Source: Verrucomicrobiia bacterium
GTDB lineage: Bacteria > Verrucomicrobiota > Verrucomicrobiia > Opitutales > Opitutaceae
NCBI GenBank assembly: GCA_030424825.1
Contig: JAUHWE010000083.1
Location: 1 to 11,561 of the forward strand
Reading direction: 5' to 3'
Length of the DNA stretch: 11,561 nt
The translations under genes were made by a program, and so were the position numbers. Within the stretch, counting starts at the first letter, position 1, and every line of letters begins with the position of its first letter. This document shows positions 1 through 11,553 of the stretch, one piece after another. Below the pieces are notes generated by a model. That model ran no database searches and had not been told where the DNA came from. It saw nothing but the letters and a program-made list of their open reading frames with translations.

Positions 1-975
1 GTGCAGGTATTCGAATCCCAGATTGAACAACAACACCCCGGCTAAAGCGGCGCCAGCTCCCGCCGCGCCCAACGCAGCCCACTCATTCTGCACGGTCCAC
101 AGAAATTGCCCGATGCAAAGAATCGACACGACCAGCAGGGTCGGAGTCCGGCCAATCCGGCTCACGATAAAGGCCCCCAGAGGAGCGCCTAGGATGACCA
201 CCGGAGCGGCCGCTAACCAATTTTCAAATACACCGGGCTGAAGCGAGCCAAACAGTGTCTTTGTCGCCAAACCCACCAGCGATGTGAAGGCCATGATAAT
301 TACCGAGGTGGGAATCGCGATCTTCAGATCGGCCTGGCAAAGGAGCACCATGTCCACCCCCACGCCCGTGATTGACGAAACGGTCGCCCCAGCGAGCAAT
401 CCGACCCAGAAACCCGCGTTTCGATCAAATCGATGCGCTCCAGGAGCCAGCCCTTCGTGCCTCGCGATCTCTTTCAAACGGTACAAGTGGAGAACGCCGA
501 AACTGCACCAAACGATCGCAAACAACACTTTGATGATTAGGCCGGAAACTAGCGGCGCCAAGAACAGGACTCCAAACGGCGTCCCGATCAGGGACCCCAG
601 CACGGCCCAGCGAAGCATGGGACACTCGATAGGCTGTCGACGGCAGAGGATGAATATCGAGGCACTCGTCATCCCGATGCTTTGAACTGCAAAGCTGAAG
701 TCCCTCCCCAGCGTCGGCGCCTCCCCAAACAGCAAGACCAGCACCGGGAACCCCACCGTCCCTCCACCCATCGGCGTCGACCCGGCCGCGTAGGAACCAA
801 TCGCCATGGCAAAGGCAATCCCCCAATGATCGACGATCGTCTGCCAATGGCTTCCCAAAAACACGACACCTAGCCAGACTGCGTAGAACCCGACTAGCCA
901 GACAAGCCACGGGCGAAGCTCCTTGGCTCCTGACTCTGACGCCACCTTCCTCGAAAACACTCCCTCCGATTTCAT
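1..975 (-). CDS. TauE/SafE-family membrane permease (putative sulfite/anion exporter), 3' end cut by window edge
   Basis: An open minus-strand frame of 325 codons runs off the left edge without a stop. It encodes a very hydrophobic protein with about eight membrane segments. Family features are visible: a glycine-rich GGGTVGFPVLVL at residues 70-81 with FSFAVQSIGM after it, and the pseudo-symmetric second half with GVGVDMV (204-210), PTSVIIMAFTSLVG (222-235) and GAPLGA (263-268). TauE/SafE proteins move sulfite, sulfoacetate or other small organic anions across the inner membrane; the substrate here cannot be read from sequence. The ATG at 975-973 is the first after an in-frame TGA about 20 nt upstream; the GTG at residue 6 is an alternative because GGAGGG lies just before it. 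A basic, polar N-terminus of about 22 residues precedes the first membrane segment. A sulfite exporter would suit the sulfur genes further right, but three unrelated plus-strand genes intervene. The family is fairly certain, the substrate is not. Confidence 0.85.
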   Translation of the reverse strand, partial: MKSEGVFSRKVASESGAKELRPWLVWLVGFYAVWLGVVFLGSHWQTIVDHWGIAFAMAIGSYAAGSTPMGGGTVGFPVLVLLFGEAPTLGRDFSFAVQSIGMTSASIFILCRRQPIECPMLRWAVLGSLIGTPFGVLFLAPLVSGLIIKVLFAIVWCSFGVLHLYRLKEIARHEGLAPGAHRFDRNAGFWVGLLAGATVSSITGVGVDMVLLCQADLKIAIPTSVIIMAFTSLVGLATKTLFGSLQPGVFENWLAAAPVVILGAPLGAFIVSRIGRTPTLLVVSILCIGQFLWTVQNEWAALGAAGAGAALAGVLLFNLGFEYLH

Positions 976-2653: not shown

Positions 2654-3000
2654 ATAGGTTAGGCGATTTTTAGGTATTCAAATTTCAAAATGGACGCAGA
2701 CACCCCATCGATCCTGAACCAGGACAAAGGAGCAACCGTAGCTCACTCGCTTTAGCGTGAGCCAAAAATAATCCATTCGTCTTAGGTGACTCACGCTAAA
2801 GCGAGTGAGCTACTTTCGATGTCCGATCAATTAACTAACGTAGACTCAGTGAGGGTCTAAGATGCTCTCTAAAAGACTGCCTTATTTTTGGCTGTAGGGA
2901 CGGATTCATTAGATCCCAGACTTGGGCGGAGCCTACGTGTTTTTGGATTGATTCGCTTGGATCTTGTATCCGTCCATCTCTTGGTCGAATATCGTTTCTA
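2654..3000. other. Non-coding gap with REP-like inverted repeats
   Basis: This 347-nt stretch follows the DUF2254 gene and precedes the lactonase-like gene. It holds the perfect 24-bp inverted repeat described separately (2738-2813). A 12-bp inverted pair, AGCCAAAAATAA at 2760-2771 and its complement at 2882-2893, partly overlaps it. A small hairpin lies at 2841-2859 (TAGACTC/GGGTCTA with one G-T pair). There is no ORF of substance. The promoter of the downstream gene should lie in the last 100 nt, but I could not pick out a clear one. Confidence 0.6.
2738..2813. repeat. Inverted pair of REP-like palindromes (BIME-like unit)
   Basis: Two 24-nt arms, 2738-2761 and 2790-2813, are exact reverse complements separated by 28 nt. 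Each arm, read from its outer end inward, begins with the tetranucleotide GTAG and continues with its own imperfect palindrome, CTCACTCGC then a TTTA loop then GCGTGAG. A GTAG head followed by an imperfect hairpin is the known layout of REP elements mobilised by RAYT (REP-associated tyrosine) transposases, and two in opposite orientation form a BIME. No RAYT gene lies in the window, so any transposase would act from elsewhere. It could also work as a bidirectional terminator or mRNA-stabilising structure for the DUF2254 gene, which ends 84 nt before it. Confidence 0.7.
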
Positions 3001-5950: not shown

Positions 5951-5973
5951 TTTTATATCGTATTACGTTATTT
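5951..5973 (+). promoter_or_regulatory. Palindromic operator-like site upstream of sulfite reductase
   Basis: These 23 nt recur without mismatch at 11066-11088. The core at 5955-5971, ATATCGTATTACGTTAT, is palindromic about its central T with a single mismatched pair (5958/5968), so it reads ATAnCGTAnTACGnTAT. The site ends 49 nt before the sulfite reductase ATG. Size and symmetry suit a dimeric winged-helix repressor. The identity outside the palindrome (TTTT on the left, TT on the right) suggests that a promoter element may overlap it. The regulator is not known from sequence; the MarR-family protein encoded two kilobases downstream in the same apparent operon is the closest candidate. Confidence 0.7.
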
Positions 5974-6022
5974 TTCTTGAAGTCCCGCTTGTTGTTTGAA
6001 TAACTCTCGATTTTCACCCACT

Positions 6023-7744
6023 ATGAGCGAAAAAAACGAAAGGATTAAAAAGGAGAGTATAGGTTTGCGAGGCGGCATCGCAGAAGCCTTGGAAGCGGGT
6101 ATTGACCATTTTGAGGAGCGTGAACTGCAGCTCTTGAAATTTCATGGTTCCTACCAGCAAGACGACAGAGATTCCCGTCGTGAACGCCGCGAGGCAGGTT
6201 TGGGTAAAGCCTGGCAATTCATGGTGCGCAGCAAGATTCCGGGTGGTCTCCTAAACTCAGAGCAATATTTGACCCATGACCGGATGTCGGAAGAACTCGC
6301 CAACGGCACCTTACGCCTCACAAATCGCCAAGGCATCCAACTGCATGGTGTGCTGTCGGGATCACTTAAGAAATGTATCCACACGATAAATGCATGCGGG
6401 CTGTCCACTTACGGGGCTTGTGGCGACATCGTTCGCAACACTATGGCCTGCGCCGTTCCCTTTGACTCCCCATCCTTCCAGGAATCCCGGGCCCTTGCCA
6501 AAGAGATTAGCGAAACGTTCTACGCTCGAAGTCGCGGCTATACTGAGATTTGGCTGGATGGGGAAAAGCTTCCGGTTCAAGAGGAGGAAGTCGAGGACCC
6601 GATCTACGGCAACGCCTACCTGCCCCGGAAATTCAAGATCGGCATCGCAATACCGCCCTTCAACGACGTCGACGTACTGACCCACGACACCGGACTCGTC
6701 GCAGATGTGAATGACGATACCATTGTCGGCTTTGACATCTATGTCGGCGGCGGGATGGGTATGAGCTTCGGCAACAAACAGACTCACCCTTCTCTTGGGT
6801 CACCTTTGTTCCATGTACCGCGCAACCAGATAATAGATACACTAAAGGCAATAGTCACGACGCAACGCGATTTTGGCAGGCGCGACGACCGCAAACAGGC
6901 CCGACTCAAATACTTAATCCGCGACCGTGGCATTGTCTGGTTCCGCAACCAAGTCGCTTCCAGACTCGAATTCGCCCCCACGCCCCACAAAGCCATTCCA
7001 CTCGGTCCAGTTGATGATCTGCTCGGCTGGCACCCGCAATCCAAGGGGCTCGCCTTTTACGGTCTATGGATTCCCGATGGCAGAATTGCCGACACCCCCT
7101 TTGGCAAGCACAAGTCTGCGTTAAGGGAAATTTGTGAAACCCACTCTCCGACCCTGACGATCAGTCCGAACGCTAATCTATACCTGCATGGGATTCCCGA
7201 ATCAGCGAAACCCGAGATCGACAAGATCCTGAGGAGGCACGAGATTCCTGACGCCTCAGTGTTCTCTCGAGCTAGACGTACCTCGCACGCATGCGTCTCC
7301 CTTCCGACCTGCGGACTTGCCCTCGCCGAAAGCGAACGCGTCTTCCAAGGCGTAATGGATTCCCTGGACCGTCTACTCGCCGTCCTTGGAATTCACCAAG
7401 AACCCTTGCTCGTCCGCATGAGTGGGTGCCCGAACGGCTGTGCTCGACCCTACAACGCTGACATCGCCTTCATTGGCAAAGGACCAGGGAAATACTCCGT
7501 ATTCATCGGCGGCTCGCATCGCGGCAACCACATGGCGAGCCTTTGGAGAAAATCGGTTCCCCTCGATTCTCTCGTGGAAGAAATACGACCAATTCTAGAG
7601 ACGTTCGTTTCCGAACGCCGCAAAGATGAATCGTTTTCCGACTACTGGCAACGGACCCAAGAGACAGAAAGGGCAAACGCAAACACTGATCGCTTCCACG
7701 TGGCAATCGACAGTCAAACACCCGCCGACCTGCTTGCCAGGTGA
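6023..7744 (+). CDS. cysI: Assimilatory sulfite reductase, hemoprotein (CysI/Sir type)
   Basis: The product is a 573-residue cytoplasmic enzyme that reduces sulfite to sulfide with six electrons on a coupled siroheme and [4Fe-4S] centre. The length matches E. coli CysI (570). The cluster ligands are C424 and C430 (ACVSLPTC) and C469 and C473 (GCPNGC). By eye, R69 (MVRSKIPGG), R138 (GDIVRNTMAC), K203 and K205 (YLPRKFKIGIAIPP) correspond to the sulfite-binding R83, R153, K215 and K217 of CysI. HGSYQQDDRD and LTNRQ are also conserved. A TTG at 5996 would add nine residues; the ATG at 6023 is preferred because MSEKNERIKKES begins like family N-termini. No flavoprotein partner (CysJ) is next to it, so the electron donor, NADPH flavoprotein or ferredoxin, is undecided. 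The palindromic site 49 nt upstream and the MarR gene 64 nt downstream suggest controlled expression. Confidence 0.95.
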   Translation: MSEKNERIKKESIGLRGGIAEALEAGIDHFEERELQLLKFHGSYQQDDRDSRRERREAGLGKAWQFMVRSKIPGGLLNSEQYLTHDRMSEELANGTLRLTNRQGIQLHGVLSGSLKKCIHTINACGLSTYGACGDIVRNTMACAVPFDSPSFQESRALAKEISETFYARSRGYTEIWLDGEKLPVQEEEVEDPIYGNAYLPRKFKIGIAIPPFNDVDVLTHDTGLVADVNDDTIVGFDIYVGGGMGMSFGNKQTHPSLGSPLFHVPRNQIIDTLKAIVTTQRDFGRRDDRKQARLKYLIRDRGIVWFRNQVASRLEFAPTPHKAIPLGPVDDLLGWHPQSKGLAFYGLWIPDGRIADTPFGKHKSALREICETHSPTLTISPNANLYLHGIPESAKPEIDKILRRHEIPDASVFSRARRTSHACVSLPTCGLALAESERVFQGVMDSLDRLLAVLGIHQEPLLVRMSGCPNGCARPYNADIAFIGKGPGKYSVFIGGSHRGNHMASLWRKSVPLDSLVEEIRPILETFVSERRKDESFSDYWQRTQETERANANTDRFHVAIDSQTPADLLAR

Positions 7745-7808
7745 TTCGACAGCAAATATTCAGTTTGGCTTAGACAAGCCGCCTGCGATCGCTAATACCG
7801 AAGATTAA

Positions 7809-8258
7809 ATGGCAAAAGGAACGCGATCATCGTCGAATCTTAGGAAATCGGACTATGAGCTTTTGGCGGATTTTCGCTATCGGCTCCGCAAGTTTCTCGG
7901 CTTTAGCGAAAACGCCGCCATTGAACACGGCGTCACACCGCAACAGTACCAGGCAATGCTCTCCATCCATGGCTATCCCGACCGAGACTGGGTAACGGTA
8001 GGCGAGCTGGCCGAGCAAATGCAGATTGAACACCACTCCGCCGGAGGACTCGCTAAACGCATGGAATCGGTCAATCTCGTACAGAGAGCGGTTTCGGAAG
8101 AAGATCGACGCAGTGTTCACCTTAAGCTAACCCCAAAAGGGCTCAGTATCTTGAACGAACTCATAAAGGCGCACCAAGACGAACTCAGCATTGTTGGCCC
8201 CGATCTTATCGGCCTCCTCAATAAAGCTTCGAAAAAAGGCCGCAAAAGCAAAGGTTAG
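7809..8258 (+). CDS. MarR-family winged-helix transcriptional regulator
   Basis: The protein has 149 residues. An N-terminal dimerisation helix (SDYELLADFRYRLRKFLGFSE, 14-34) is followed by TPQQYQAMLSIHG (43-55), the helix-turn-helix (VTVGELAEQMQIEHHSAGGLAKRME, 62-86) and the wing, which carries the MarR signature SEEDRRSVHLKLTPKG (96-111). The C-terminus ends in a lysine/arginine-rich tail (SKKGRKSKG). The start is fixed by an in-frame TAA touching the ATG. It lies 64 nt after sulfite reductase on the same strand, so it is probably cotranscribed and may control that gene and itself. MarR proteins bind short palindromes as dimers, and the site upstream of sulfite reductase is of suitable size; the pairing of this protein with that site is inference. 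No ligand-sensing cysteine is present in the protein at all, so a thiol-redox sensor is unlikely. Confidence 0.92.
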   Translation: MAKGTRSSSNLRKSDYELLADFRYRLRKFLGFSENAAIEHGVTPQQYQAMLSIHGYPDRDWVTVGELAEQMQIEHHSAGGLAKRMESVNLVQRAVSEEDRRSVHLKLTPKGLSILNELIKAHQDELSIVGPDLIGLLNKASKKGRKSKG

Positions 8259-8434
8259 TCGCTCTCAACCTGCAGTACTCATTAAGAGAAGCTTTTGTTA
8301 CCGTTAAAGTTTGGATACATATTCAGAATGCGACCGGTCACTCGTCGATCCCTTACCCGTACGCATTTCCTCCAGAAATGATGACAACATCATCCGAAAC
8401 AGCTTTTAGAAAAGGTTCTAGTCACCCGATACCC

Positions 8435-8770
8435 CTACTTCGGTTTCGACTCATATAGTAGAGAACCATTGATCTCCAACTCCAACGCCTGCAATCGGAA
8501 AACCGTTTCGGAATTCAGAGGACTGGGACCGTAGACCCACGTTGCAAACGAAAGGACAAGTAACCGCGTCGCAATCTTTCGCCTTAAACGTTTTCCGCCC
8601 ATGAGCAACGCCTTTCGAAGCTGAGGCAGCTCAGTGGCCAAAAAGCCGCGCAGGCTGATCGGCAACCAGGATTCTCTCAACAAGGAATCCTCAATTTCAG
8701 CAATCCTACTCGCAATGGCTTCGCCATTTGACTCCACACGCTCAGTAGAATAACTTGAATTTGAAGACAT
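8435..8770 (-). CDS. Hypothetical small protein, unrecognised
   Basis: This 111-residue ORF is on the minus strand. I do not recognise it. The first half is polar with an acidic helix-like stretch (EAIASRIAEIEDSLLRESW, 17-35), then a basic block (GGKRLRRKIATRL, 58-70) leads into a hydrophobic run (LLVLSFATWVYG, 70-81) that could be a short membrane or amphipathic helix. It lies 111 nt downstream of cysteine synthase on the same strand and converges on the MarR gene. There is no clear ribosome binding site. The composition looks protein-like and no competing ORF overlaps it, but with no family match it could be spurious. Confidence 0.5.
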   Translation of the reverse strand: MSSNSSYSTERVESNGEAIASRIAEIEDSLLRESWLPISLRGFLATELPQLRKALLMGGKRLRRKIATRLLVLSFATWVYGPSPLNSETVFRLQALELEINGSLLYESKPK

Positions 8771-8881
8771 GATGTCTAAGACTTTTCAATCGAATGAGAG
8801 GTCCATTTTATTTTTTTTAAAAGCCCACTTTTTTCCGAAGTCCATTTTCCCTTCATCAAAGACCTCTAAGTCCTGGAGTAA

Positions 8882-9835
8882 CTAGATTTCGTCACTGCCC
8901 ACATCGAGGTCGTCAAACAACCACGAACTAAAGTAACGCTCGCTACTAGACGGCACGATAGCGACGATCCGCTTGTCAGCGTTCTCTGGGCGTTTTGACA
9001 ATTCAATGGCCGCCCAGATGGCCGCCCCAGACGAGATACCGACCGGGATCCCATCGAGTCTGTTCACTTCGCGGCTAATCGGACCGGAATCCGATTCTTT
9101 CACCCGAATCACTTCGTCGTAGGAATCCGTATTCAAAACCTCAGGCACAAACCCCGCTCCCAAACCTTGGAGCTTGTGCGGCCCCGGCTCGCCACCGGAC
9201 AAAACCGGTGACCCCTCAGGCTCCACCGCTACGATCTTCAGATCTGGCTTCAAGGGCTTCAGCGCTTCCGCTATCCCGGTAATCGTACCGCCGGTGCCAA
9301 CCCCAGAGACGACGATATCCACGGTTCCGTCCGTATCGTTCCAGATTTCTTGAGCCGTCGTGAGACGATGAATCTCAGGATTGGCGGGGTTCGTAAATTG
9401 GCTAACAATAAAGCTGTTTGGAATAGACGCCGCGATGCGCTCAGCCTCCGCCATCGCTCCTTTCATTCCCTTAGCCCCTTCGGTCAAAACCAATTTCGCT
9501 CCCAGCGCTTTCAACATTCTACGCCGCTCCACCGTCATCGTTTCCGGCATGGCGAGGATCAGCTTGAGGCCTTTTGCGGCGGCCACGAATGCCAATGCGA
9601 TCCCAGTGTTCCCACTCGTCGCCTCAATCAAAGTCGTATCCGCACCGATCTCGTTCTTTTGCATCGCCGCATTGATCATGGCGGCGCCAATCCTATCCTT
9701 CACGCTCGAGAGCGGATTAAAAAATTCAAGCTTGAGCACGATTTCGCATCGAGCCCCATGTGCTGCCGCCGTGCGATTCAAACGCACCAAAGGCGTGTTT
9801 CCAATCGTTTCAACAATATCGCTATATATTCTCAT
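8882..9835 (-). CDS. cysK: Cysteine synthase (O-acetylserine sulfhydrylase), PLP-dependent
   Basis: The product (317 residues) makes L-cysteine from O-acetylserine and sulfide in the cytoplasm. All hallmarks of the fold-type II family are visible: IGNTPLVRLN (11-20), PLOP-lysine K46 in NPLSSVKDRIG, the substrate loop EATSGNTG (71-78), the phosphate-binding GVGTGGT (178-184), HKLQGLGAGFVP (220-231) and GISSGAA (266-272). The usual C-terminal 'SGERYLST' reads SSERYFSS (297-304), a conservative change. The frame is open upstream to 9898, but that region is inside the preceding gene and MRIYSDIVETIGNTP is the standard N-terminus. The ATG follows the stop of the PLP-enzyme gene by 10 nt, so the two are surely cotranscribed and possibly translationally coupled. 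Sulfide would come from the sulfite reductase encoded 1.1 kb away on the other strand. Confidence 0.95.
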   Translation of the reverse strand: MRIYSDIVETIGNTPLVRLNRTAAAHGARCEIVLKLEFFNPLSSVKDRIGAAMINAAMQKNEIGADTTLIEATSGNTGIALAFVAAAKGLKLILAMPETMTVERRRMLKALGAKLVLTEGAKGMKGAMAEAERIAASIPNSFIVSQFTNPANPEIHRLTTAQEIWNDTDGTVDIVVSGVGTGGTITGIAEALKPLKPDLKIVAVEPEGSPVLSGGEPGPHKLQGLGAGFVPEVLNTDSYDEVIRVKESDSGPISREVNRLDGIPVGISSGAAIWAAIELSKRPENADKRIVAIVPSSSERYFSSWLFDDLDVGSDEI

Positions 9836-9845
9836 AATAGTAATT

Positions 9846-11027
9846 TCAGTCACCAAGGGCCTGCTCCAAATCCGCGACAAGATCCGCAGTCGACTCAACC
9901 CCGACCGACAAGCGGATCAAGCCCTCCGAAATGCCTGCCTCTATTCGTCCCTCGGGCGTCATCCCTCTATGGCTGGACATCGCTGGGCGTGTCGCCAAAC
10001 TTTCCATACCACCCAAACTGACCGCATGCGTGATCAGCTTCATCCGGTCGAGGAACCGCTCTGCGGCCACCTTGCCCCCTTTTAGTTCAAAGGCGAGCAG
10101 CCCGCTTCCCGCCGCCATTTGTCGCTCGAAAAGAGCTCTTTGGCGCCCTTCCCCACTTCCAGGGTAATACACCCTTTCAACTTCAGGACGAGCCGCCAAC
10201 CACTGAGCGATTGCGGCGCCGTTGCGATTGTGGGCTTTCATCCGCAGCGCAAAGGTACGCATCCCACGCAGTATCATCCACGCCTCCATCGCATTCACCG
10301 TCCCGCCTAAATTCTTGTGAACACGCCGATCTTGCGACGTCAAAGCTTCCCGCTTCACCACGCAACCGCCCACCATGTCGGAATGTCCGTTCAAGTACTT
10401 GGTCGTTGATTGCACCACCCAATCCGCGCCCAGGACCAAAGGACGCTGGTTATACGGTGTCGCCACCGTGTTGTCCACAATCACCGGCACCCCGCTAGGA
10501 CGAGCGGCCTGCACCGTCGCTTCAATATCGATTAGCCGCATCAAAGGATTCGAAGGCGACTCCAACAACACCGCACCCGCGCGCGATACGGATTCTAGCC
10601 ACTTCTCTTCGTTCGCCGAATCGAGTACCTCGACTGACAGGCCATATACCTCCTCTAAAATCGCTAACAACTCGTGGCTTCCCCCATAGATATCCGGATG
10701 GGTCAGCAATTTCCCCTTTCGCCCGTACATCGCCGCCGTGATGGCGCAAAGCGTCGCCGCATTGCCAGAACTGGTCACCATCGCCCCCTTACCACACTCC
10801 AACCACTGCACGGCCTCCGCGAGTTTCTCCACCGTAGGATTTCCAAACCGCGTGTAGGCGAAACCCGAGCGTTCGCCGGAAAAAATGGCTTCCGCATCTG
10901 CCGCGTCCCCAAGATCGAACACAGTACTCTGGACGATCGGCGGCACATAAGGACCATTCCGCCCTTCCTTTCCGCCCAAATGCACACAATGGGTCTGCAA
11001 TCGGTCCTGAGAATCTGGTGAATCCAT
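9846..11027 (-). CDS. Cys/Met-metabolism PLP-dependent enzyme (cystathionine gamma-synthase/-lyase or sulfhydrylase type)
   Basis: The product is a 393-residue fold-type I PLP enzyme. Visible are YTRFGNPT (58-65), the SSGNAA phosphate-binding loop (86-91), DIYGGS (112-117), VDNTVATP (184-191) with the PLP-contacting aspartate D185, and QSTTKYLNGHSDMVGG (206-221) with the Schiff-base lysine K210. LGGMESLATRP and GLIRLSVGVE close the family pattern. The family includes cystathionine gamma-synthase, gamma-lyase and O-acyl-homoserine sulfhydrylases, and sequence alone does not separate them; gene order with cysteine synthase and sulfite reductase favours a biosynthetic or reverse-transsulfuration role. 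The frame is open to 11099, but those first codons cover the shared palindromic site, so the ATG at 11027 is chosen (11057 is possible). It is the first gene of a two-gene unit and its promoter should lie at or just beyond 11066-11088. Confidence 0.92.
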   Translation of the reverse strand: MDSPDSQDRLQTHCVHLGGKEGRNGPYVPPIVQSTVFDLGDAADAEAIFSGERSGFAYTRFGNPTVEKLAEAVQWLECGKGAMVTSSGNAATLCAITAAMYGRKGKLLTHPDIYGGSHELLAILEEVYGLSVEVLDSANEEKWLESVSRAGAVLLESPSNPLMRLIDIEATVQAARPSGVPVIVDNTVATPYNQRPLVLGADWVVQSTTKYLNGHSDMVGGCVVKREALTSQDRRVHKNLGGTVNAMEAWMILRGMRTFALRMKAHNRNGAAIAQWLAARPEVERVYYPGSGEGRQRALFERQMAAGSGLLAFELKGGKVAAERFLDRMKLITHAVSLGGMESLATRPAMSSHRGMTPEGRIEAGISEGLIRLSVGVESTADLVADLEQALGD

Positions 11028-11065
11028 TAGATCCGAAGCTTGACCACTATTATGCATTTGCCAAG

Positions 11066-11088
11066 TTTTATATCGTATTACGTTATTT
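11066..11088 (+). promoter_or_regulatory. Second copy of the palindromic operator-like site, between divergent sulfur genes
   Basis: This 23-nt stretch is identical to 5951-5973, with the palindromic core at 11070-11086. Only short chance similarity extends beyond it. It lies 38 nt from the PLP-enzyme ATG at 11027 on the minus strand and 21 nt from the DUF488 ATG on the plus strand, so one bound regulator could control both directions. The strand is given to match the first copy, in which the same orientation points into sulfite reductase; here that orientation points into the DUF488 gene. Confidence 0.7.
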
Positions 11089-11109: not shown

Positions 11110-11553
11110 ATGAAATTGCACCTTTATCAGTACGGTCACGGTTCCAAGCTACCCGGCATTTCTATCGGCGTCGCTCGGCTCGCCCCGCGCGGCATTCGCG
11201 TAGAAGACCGATTCCGCAAGGGATACTTTCAAGTCTGGATGCCCTTGCTCGCCCCTAGCAAAGCGCTCTTTTCCGCGTACCGGAAGCAAGCGATTTCGCA
11301 TCCGCAATTCGCACAACGATATATTCGAGAAATGAAGAGGCCCGAATCCGTCCAGGCCATTCGCCTCATCGCCGCCATTTGCCAAACTGTCCGCGTAAAC
11401 CTCGGCTGTTTCTGCCCAGACGATTCAAAGTGTCACCGCTCGCTACTGGCAGACCTGGTTCGGAAAGCGGAGGCGGAATTACCCGCACCCTCCGACTCTA
11501 TCCCTCAATACTTCAGTTCCCCATGCTCGATGCCAGAGATCGAAGATGATTAG
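11110..11553 (+). CDS. DUF488 family protein
   Basis: The protein has 147 residues and no signal peptide. It matches the DUF488 (YeaO-like) family: YGHGSKLPGISIGVARLAPRG pattern near the N-terminus (8-28), RKGYFQVWMPLLAPS (36-50), FAQRYIREMKRPES (67-80) and the cysteine/histidine motif LGCFCPDDSKCHRSLL (98-113), with C100, C102, C108 and H109. The biochemical role of the family is not established; the CxC...CHR cluster could bind a metal or a thiol ligand, which is inference. It is divergent from the cysteine-biosynthesis unit and has the sulfite-reductase-type palindrome 21 nt before its ATG, so it is likely expressed under the same sulfur-related control. The leader would be very short if the promoter overlaps the site. 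The stop codon is eight bases before the window end. Confidence 0.88.
   Translation: MKLHLYQYGHGSKLPGISIGVARLAPRGIRVEDRFRKGYFQVWMPLLAPSKALFSAYRKQAISHPQFAQRYIREMKRPESVQAIRLIAAICQTVRVNLGCFCPDDSKCHRSLLADLVRKAEAELPAPSDSIPQYFSSPCSMPEIEDD

Follow-up and report, generated by a model that had tools for sequence, protein, structure and literature searches.

Two promoters on an 11,561-nt contig of a Verrucomicrobiia bacterium of the Opitutaceae (JAUHWE010000083.1, assembly GCA_030424825.1; the whole stretch is called the window below) carry one and the same palindromic element, which raises the question of which protein reads it and what that protein controls. The 23-mer TTTTATATCGTATTACGTTATTT is present twice, at positions 5951-5973 and 11066-11088, and the match breaks off exactly at both ends. 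All directly repeated 18-mers of the window fall inside it, making it the only direct repeat of at least 18 nt, and the base composition of the window leads one to expect about 1e-6 identical 23-mer pairs. The 17-nt core is a palindrome with one mismatched pair (T and T at positions 4 and 14). The first copy lies 51 nt from the ATG of a sulfite reductase gene; the second lies in a divergent gap, 42 nt from the ATG (11027, minus strand) of a pyridoxal phosphate (PLP) enzyme gene that precedes the cysteine synthase gene cysK, and 23 nt from the ATG (11110) of a DUF488 gene. The initial annotation of this DNA had described the identity, the dissimilar surroundings, the imperfect 17-nt palindrome and its placement, and had judged chance identity very unlikely; all of this was confirmed. 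Pattern ATANCGTANTACGNTAT with up to three mismatches was found at these two places of the window only (mean of 0.15 in shuffled sequences; at least two matches in 3 of 200 shuffles), and a search of the assembly (5.04 Mb, 811 contigs, 89% complete) with ATATCGTATTACGTTAT returned only the two window copies at fewer than three mismatches. Searching with the palindromic consensus added two 2-mismatch matches in this genome: one on contig C56, within a reading frame, and one on contig C151, within a long frame of a gene whose start a second gene caller puts 204 nt later.

We consider it likely that both copies are operators of a cysteine-free MarR dimer encoded just downstream of the sulfite reductase gene (7809-8258), the centre of a regulon tied to nitrite or nitric oxide (NO) stress, whose targets here would be sulfite reductase, cysteine synthesis and DUF488. 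The MarR protein scores above the cut-offs of PF12802 and PF01047, with Pfam yielding MarR and HTH_27 families only, and its AlphaFold model predicts helices and a wing in the MarR order (mean predicted local distance difference test score, pLDDT, 86). It reaches no NCBIfam equivalog cut-off, and its relatives of solved structure are remote (best E 6e-14). Cysteine is absent from the sequence, and with it the reactive cysteine of the OhrR/MexR thiol-switch type; nor did the protein show an Rrf2 domain with Fe-S ligands, as would mark NsrR.

The initial annotation had named this MarR as the nearest candidate regulator, a proposal that sequence comparisons supported through sites directly upstream of MarR genes, through co-occurrence across genomes and through the pairing of operator bases with residue 77 of the protein. 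Among 200 genomes of the family, MarR was present in 39 and occurred twice in genome G117, giving 40 genes, with the nearest relatives of the window protein found in Pelagicoccus. A site with up to three mismatches to ATATCGTAnTACGATAT stood directly upstream (within 200 bp of the start of the MarR match) of 22 of the 40 genes. For eight more, the window among them, the fetched stretch of about 12 kb (shorter where a contig ends) had one at another place; shuffled upstream regions gave an expectation of 0.0 direct sites, and the reversed pattern matched once across all 40 loci. The strongest sequence-based test of who owns the site was genome-wide. At up to one mismatch we counted 19 sites in 12 of the 39 MarR-positive genomes versus 0 in 39 MarR-negative genomes of the same family, a set picked in list order, not at random, and leaving aside some incomplete genomes; at up to two mismatches, there were 44 sites in 29 MarR-positive genomes versus 13 in 10 MarR-negative ones, with the reversed pattern giving three matches and none, respectively. 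As far as sequence can show, the MarR whose gene follows sulfite reductase has the palindrome as its operator. The initial annotation had also suggested scanning this and related genomes with its own pattern. In the window genome that scan returned the two window copies only, at fewer than three mismatches. Across 57 genomes the pattern alone was unspecific: at up to one mismatch it matched in eight (the window genome included), by our reading mostly within genes, and the reversed control matched in 11. It is when paired with the presence of MarR that the pattern becomes specific.

The pairing of regulator and operator was also visible at the level of single residues and bases. A GTDB genome scan with the MarR alignment gave at least 493 confirmed matches, the best 80 of which were taken as named loci spanning Verrucomicrobiota, Chloroflexota, Fibrobacterota, Actinomycetota and Pseudomonadota. 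Searching from -350 to +30 of each MarR gene for the operator arms (ATATC-n7-GATAT, up to one mismatch) returned sites before 52 of the 80 genes, with 0.35 expected. In 26 sites operator bases 6 and 12 read G/C (ATATCG type), and residue 77 of the accompanying MarR is then always Ser or Thr; another 25 sites read A/T (ATATCA type), each belonging to a MarR with Gly77. A single site is half-changed (G/T with Ser77, L127). Residue 77 lies inside helix 75-87 of the AlphaFold model, which by MarR convention would be the recognition helix. The proposed operator of the subfamily is ATATCG-TAnTA-CGATAT or, in a beta/gammaproteobacterial branch, ATATCA-n5-TGATAT. The residue-77 label takes four changes on the MarR tree, where most of the Gly proteins fall on one branch; the pairing is thus close to one evolutionary event rather than 51 independent ones, and its rows are not independent. 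Residue 79 is Gly in the window protein and in L018, L020, L077 and L078, a window/Pelagicoccus-like branch, and Val in the other aligned rows. Sites that depart from the consensus at position 4 or 14 account for 8 of 10 in the Gly79 branch (leaving out the C56 and C151 matches of the window genome, G000) versus 0 of 32 in the other MarR-positive genomes, so that the mismatched pair of the window palindrome appears to have a parallel in Gly79. An ATATCA-type operator was also seen near one gene cluster in Caballeronia (L150:9319, L146:8346), with DUF1840 in L150.

The window sulfite reductase groups with the copies of G117 (75% identity) and G015 (60%) with support of 100/100, and the site precedes all three, whereas ordinary sulfite reductases are 40-45% identical to the window copy and fall outside its clade. 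G117 carries both types, G015 has a second sulfite reductase match, and the search of the window genome found the window type only. At 27 ordinary-type loci (L050-L076), the best-scoring of the sulfite reductase matches, there was no site with up to three mismatches (best 4-7), which rules out a site conserved before all sulfite reductases. The tree row L068, whose implausibly long branch probably reflects a wrong reading frame, was given no weight. The initial annotation had named orthologous promoters without the site as grounds for rejecting its regulon; conservation was found at the same-clade promoters of G117 and G015, and failed at the ordinary-type loci, which are not true orthologues, while G117 also has a site in the identical gap between DUF488 and PLP enzyme-CysK. 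One further sulfite reductase, in L086, resembles ordinary copies more closely (45-59% identity) than the window copy (40%) and falls outside the window clade in the tree; here the site lies in the gap shared with MarR, 12 nt upstream of the likely ATG of the reductase gene. Since both the window clade and this ordinary-like copy have the site, the link between site and sulfite reductase probably arose twice.

The targets in related genomes extend beyond sulfur metabolism. By our reading, 18 of the 19 best sites (up to one mismatch) precede MarR, ClC, HPP, sulfite reductase, PLP enzyme/DUF488, CcoN or one unknown family, and one has no clear target (G033:C60). Sites are frequent between MarR and the gene of a ClC channel, with HPP next; a Usp gene is also among the neighbours in Burkholderiaceae, and cbb3 oxidase is a target in G117 and G013. 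In G117 one site lies between DUF488-ClC and PLP enzyme-CysK, in the same arrangement as in the window and with an identical 17-mer (L224:5001). Four others precede sulfite reductase-MarR, CcoN-CcoO, a second PLP enzyme and an HPP gene with a NO reductase gene behind it; a sixth, with two mismatches, has no clear target. Nine HPP genes pass the cut-off among MarR-positive genomes, and the surroundings of eight were read, all except that of G057. By our reading seven lie behind a site with up to four mismatches (G117, G065, G030, G160, G213, G125 and G071); in G015 a site follows HPP and precedes ClC. DUF488 recurs as well: the window gene has its orthologue at the same site in G117, followed by the ClC gene; a 3-mismatch site separates DUF488 from a NO reductase gene in L105; DUF488 closely follows MarR in G108, G076 and Geminisphaera (L163, L169, L081); and in G065 a single open frame of 304 codons encodes a DUF488 domain and then a MarR domain (L241:3102-4016), which is either a naturally fused gene or a pair of genes that no stop codon separates. 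This recurrence indicates that the window DUF488 gene is a recurring partner of MarR rather than a bystander. The sulfur regulon proposed in the initial annotation is too narrow a description, given the sites before MarR, ClC, HPP, NO reductase, DUF488 and cbb3 oxidase genes in relatives. A protein family was also observed behind the operator in G094 and G110 (L229:3892-4899, L235:5111-5494) and opposite MarR in L096:5330-5749; its L235 copy has no Pfam match.

The company that MarR keeps points to nitrite and NO. MarR adjoins nirK in G117 and G182 and RIC in G182 and G213, with nirK about 3.7 kb away in G213 and RIC about 10 kb away in G117. NirK, the copper nitrite reductase, scored above cut-off in 26 of 39 MarR-positive versus 7 of 39 MarR-negative genomes (one-sided Fisher p 1e-5), RIC in 15 versus 6 (p 0.02) and HPP in 9 versus 1 (p 0.007); the 78 genomes are related, which makes these p-values only guides. 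A candidate nitrite transporter of chloroplasts and cyanobacteria belongs to the HPP proteins (Maeda et al. 2014, as cited in PMC4137279). Sites precede NO or nitrite genes in G117 (HPP-NO reductase) and, at three mismatches, in L105, while the NirK gene that the window genome also possesses is without one. Taken together, these associations suggest that the regulon would be a nitrite- or NO-linked stress response, with a sulfur signal as the main rival.

While sites, targets and the pairing of regulator with operator are established by sequence, we infer MarR binding, repression, autoregulation through the sulfite reductase promoter and the signal. The MarR dimer would sit on the palindrome and repress the operon of sulfite reductase and MarR, hence itself, as well as the divergent PLP enzyme-CysK and DUF488 promoters, and would release the DNA on meeting its inducer. 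Sulfite reductase, which might also act as a nitrite reductase, and cysteine synthesis would then serve repair or detoxification under nitrite or NO stress.

Several observations weigh against this reading. MarR was not found in any of nine listed genus mates; there was no site with up to three mismatches in the locus of 10 of the 40 family MarR genes, and no arm site in 28 of the 80 named loci. The composition of the MarR-negative set and the near-single origin of the residue-77 pairing, both described above, temper the comparisons that rest on them. NorB (NO reductase) was not significantly enriched (3 of 39 MarR-positive versus 1 of 39 MarR-negative genomes, p 0.3), the window genome has no HPP, NorB or RIC above cut-off, and its nirK contig carries no site with up to two mismatches. 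In the window, sulfur genes and DUF488 are the only genes at which the two sites lie, and promoter scans found no sigma-70-like promoter overlapping either copy.

That both window sites stand at sulfur genes fits the principal alternative, a dedicated sulfur regulon in which the same MarR and operators answer to a sulfur signal (sulfite, sulfide or a cysteine precursor), with sulfite reductase and PLP enzyme/CysK at its core and the remaining targets as accretions. Sites before the PLP enzyme in G182, G195, G148, G059 and G013, a 3-mismatch site before cysK in L142 and the presence of the site at sulfite reductases of two types lend themselves to the same view. However, among the other targets MarR, ClC and HPP are the most frequent, and cbb3 oxidase is one in G117 and G013. 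MarR also stands beside nirK (G117, G182) and RIC (G182, G213) and tracks nirK in its presence; we regard a sulfur signal as a serious though rather unlikely alternative. A different doubt concerns the reader of the site, which could be another, merely linked regulator of the Rrf2, Crp/Fnr or ArsR type; the initial annotation had offered an Rrf2- or ArsR-type protein elsewhere, and Rrf2 and Crp/Fnr genes do occur in some of these neighbourhoods. Site presence nevertheless follows MarR across genomes, the operator changes with the MarR recognition helix, and many lineages with differing neighbours have the site immediately in front of their MarR gene, all of which disfavours such an owner and leaves it very improbable.

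Two further explanations would remove the regulatory meaning of the element or its bearing on this organism. A recent duplication or mobile repeat would account for identity over 23 nt, including a shared off-consensus base, but the genome holds just two copies, G117 has orthologous copies at the same promoters, and sites of the Gly79 branch commonly depart from the consensus at that position; we give this explanation hardly any weight. The contig might instead be misbinned and its regulon foreign to the window genome, as the nine genus mates without MarR, the Pelagicoccus affinity of the protein and a GC content of 53% in the window, compared with 48-51% in six stretches taken from five other contigs, would allow. 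Against this, a 22-nt dispersed palindromic element, often in facing pairs, occurs in the window and across the genome (69 matches at up to two mismatches, two of them in the window; reversed control 0). Because window and genome have this element in common, the contig very likely belongs to the genome, and misbinning appears improbable. The MarR-operator reading with a nitrite or NO link remains the one we favour.

The features of the window are collected in the table below.

Table. Predicted operators, genes and repeats of the window
Feature	Position	Strand	Remarks
Operator copy 1 (predicted)	5951..5973		Core 5955-5971; 51 nt 5' of sulfite reductase ATG
Operator copy 2 (predicted)	11066..11088		Core 11070-11086; divergent gap between PLP enzyme and DUF488 genes
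Sulfite reductase hemoprotein (NIR_SIR)	6023..7744	+	NF010029 above cut-off; separate clade with G117 and G015 copies
MarR-family regulator, cysteine-free	7809..8258	+	Begins 64 nt past sulfite reductase; proposed owner of both operators
Small conserved protein	8435..8770	-	Follows PLP enzyme/CysK genes
Cysteine synthase CysK	8882..9835	-	TIGR01139 above cut-off; about 10 nt after PLP enzyme
Cys/Met-metabolism PLP enzyme, cystathionine gamma-synthase / gamma-lyase type	9846..11027	-	
DUF488-N3a protein	11110..11553	+	Divergent from PLP enzyme
TauE/SafE-family permease, partial	1-975	-	PF01925
Inverted repeat	2738-2813		27 nt, 96% complementary, 22 nt between arms; arm core is the 22-nt element

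Sulfite reductase, for which TTG 5996 is a possible alternative start to ATG 6023, scores 656 bits to NF010029 (assimilatory sulfite reductase; cut-off 457) and falls below the cut-offs of TIGR02041 CysI and TIGR02042 sir; the MarR gene probably shares its operon. The PLP enzyme reached no equivalog cut-off among the families shown, and the start of CysK at an internal ATG is our own reading. The small protein has no Pfam or NCBIfam match; in G117 (two copies), G182 and G195, too, a homologue comes after the PLP enzyme. TGCCAAG (11059-11065), which adjoins operator copy 2, recurs beside the operator in L224, L225 and L227 and may be another conserved element in the promoter of the PLP enzyme gene. 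The window pattern search found no operator adjoining the TauE/SafE permease gene, and the inverted repeat is a dispersed element like repetitive extragenic palindromes (REP/REPIN).

MarR repressors that act through palindromic operators are well known as a kind; the subfamily, operator and targets described here appear unnamed, and among the papers that searches of an open-access library listed, none dealt with the motif or the regulator in its title or the opening of its abstract. Sequence comparison places this so far unnamed subfamily in Verrucomicrobiota, Chloroflexota, Pseudomonadota, Fibrobacterota and an actinomycete. Tentatively, we suggest that a MarR subfamily free of thiol switches senses nitrite, NO or a direct product, that in this bacterium it controls a siroheme sulfite reductase of a special clade, CysK and DUF488, with the sulfite reductase acting as an inducible nitrite-reducing or thiol-repair enzyme, and that residues 77 and 79 set the operator code. 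An orphan regulator family reaching from Verrucomicrobiota and Chloroflexota to Burkholderiaceae thereby gains a defined operator, a list of targets and a proposed specificity code of two residues; if the nitrite/NO link is true, cysteine and sulfite metabolism would be joined to nitrosative stress by a MarR without a thiol switch.

The closest known systems are those of HucR, MftR, PecS and their relatives, autoregulated MarR-family repressors with palindromic operators. As in these, the window protein has a MarR winged-helix domain with the predicted order of helices and wing, and a palindrome lies before the regulator gene and its neighbours; the PecS consensus also contains TCGTA...TACGA, which it has in common with the window-type operator. 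The latter differs from theirs in spacing, outer arms (ATATCG-TAnTA-CGATAT) and targets. With the NO regulons of NsrR, NorR, DNR and NnrR there is overlap in the gene content of relatives (NO reductase, RIC and the nirK neighbourhood), but the window regulator is a cysteine-free MarR, which sets it apart from Fe-S proteins of the Rrf2 family, sigma-54 activators and the Crp/Fnr group, and its operator does not resemble their known sites. The CysB, CymR, MetJ and SahR regulons likewise have sulfite reductase and cysteine synthesis genes as targets. Unlike these regulators, whose family and known operators are different, the protein linked to the window operators and co-occurring with them is of the MarR type, and the sites of its relatives also stand at targets outside sulfur metabolism.

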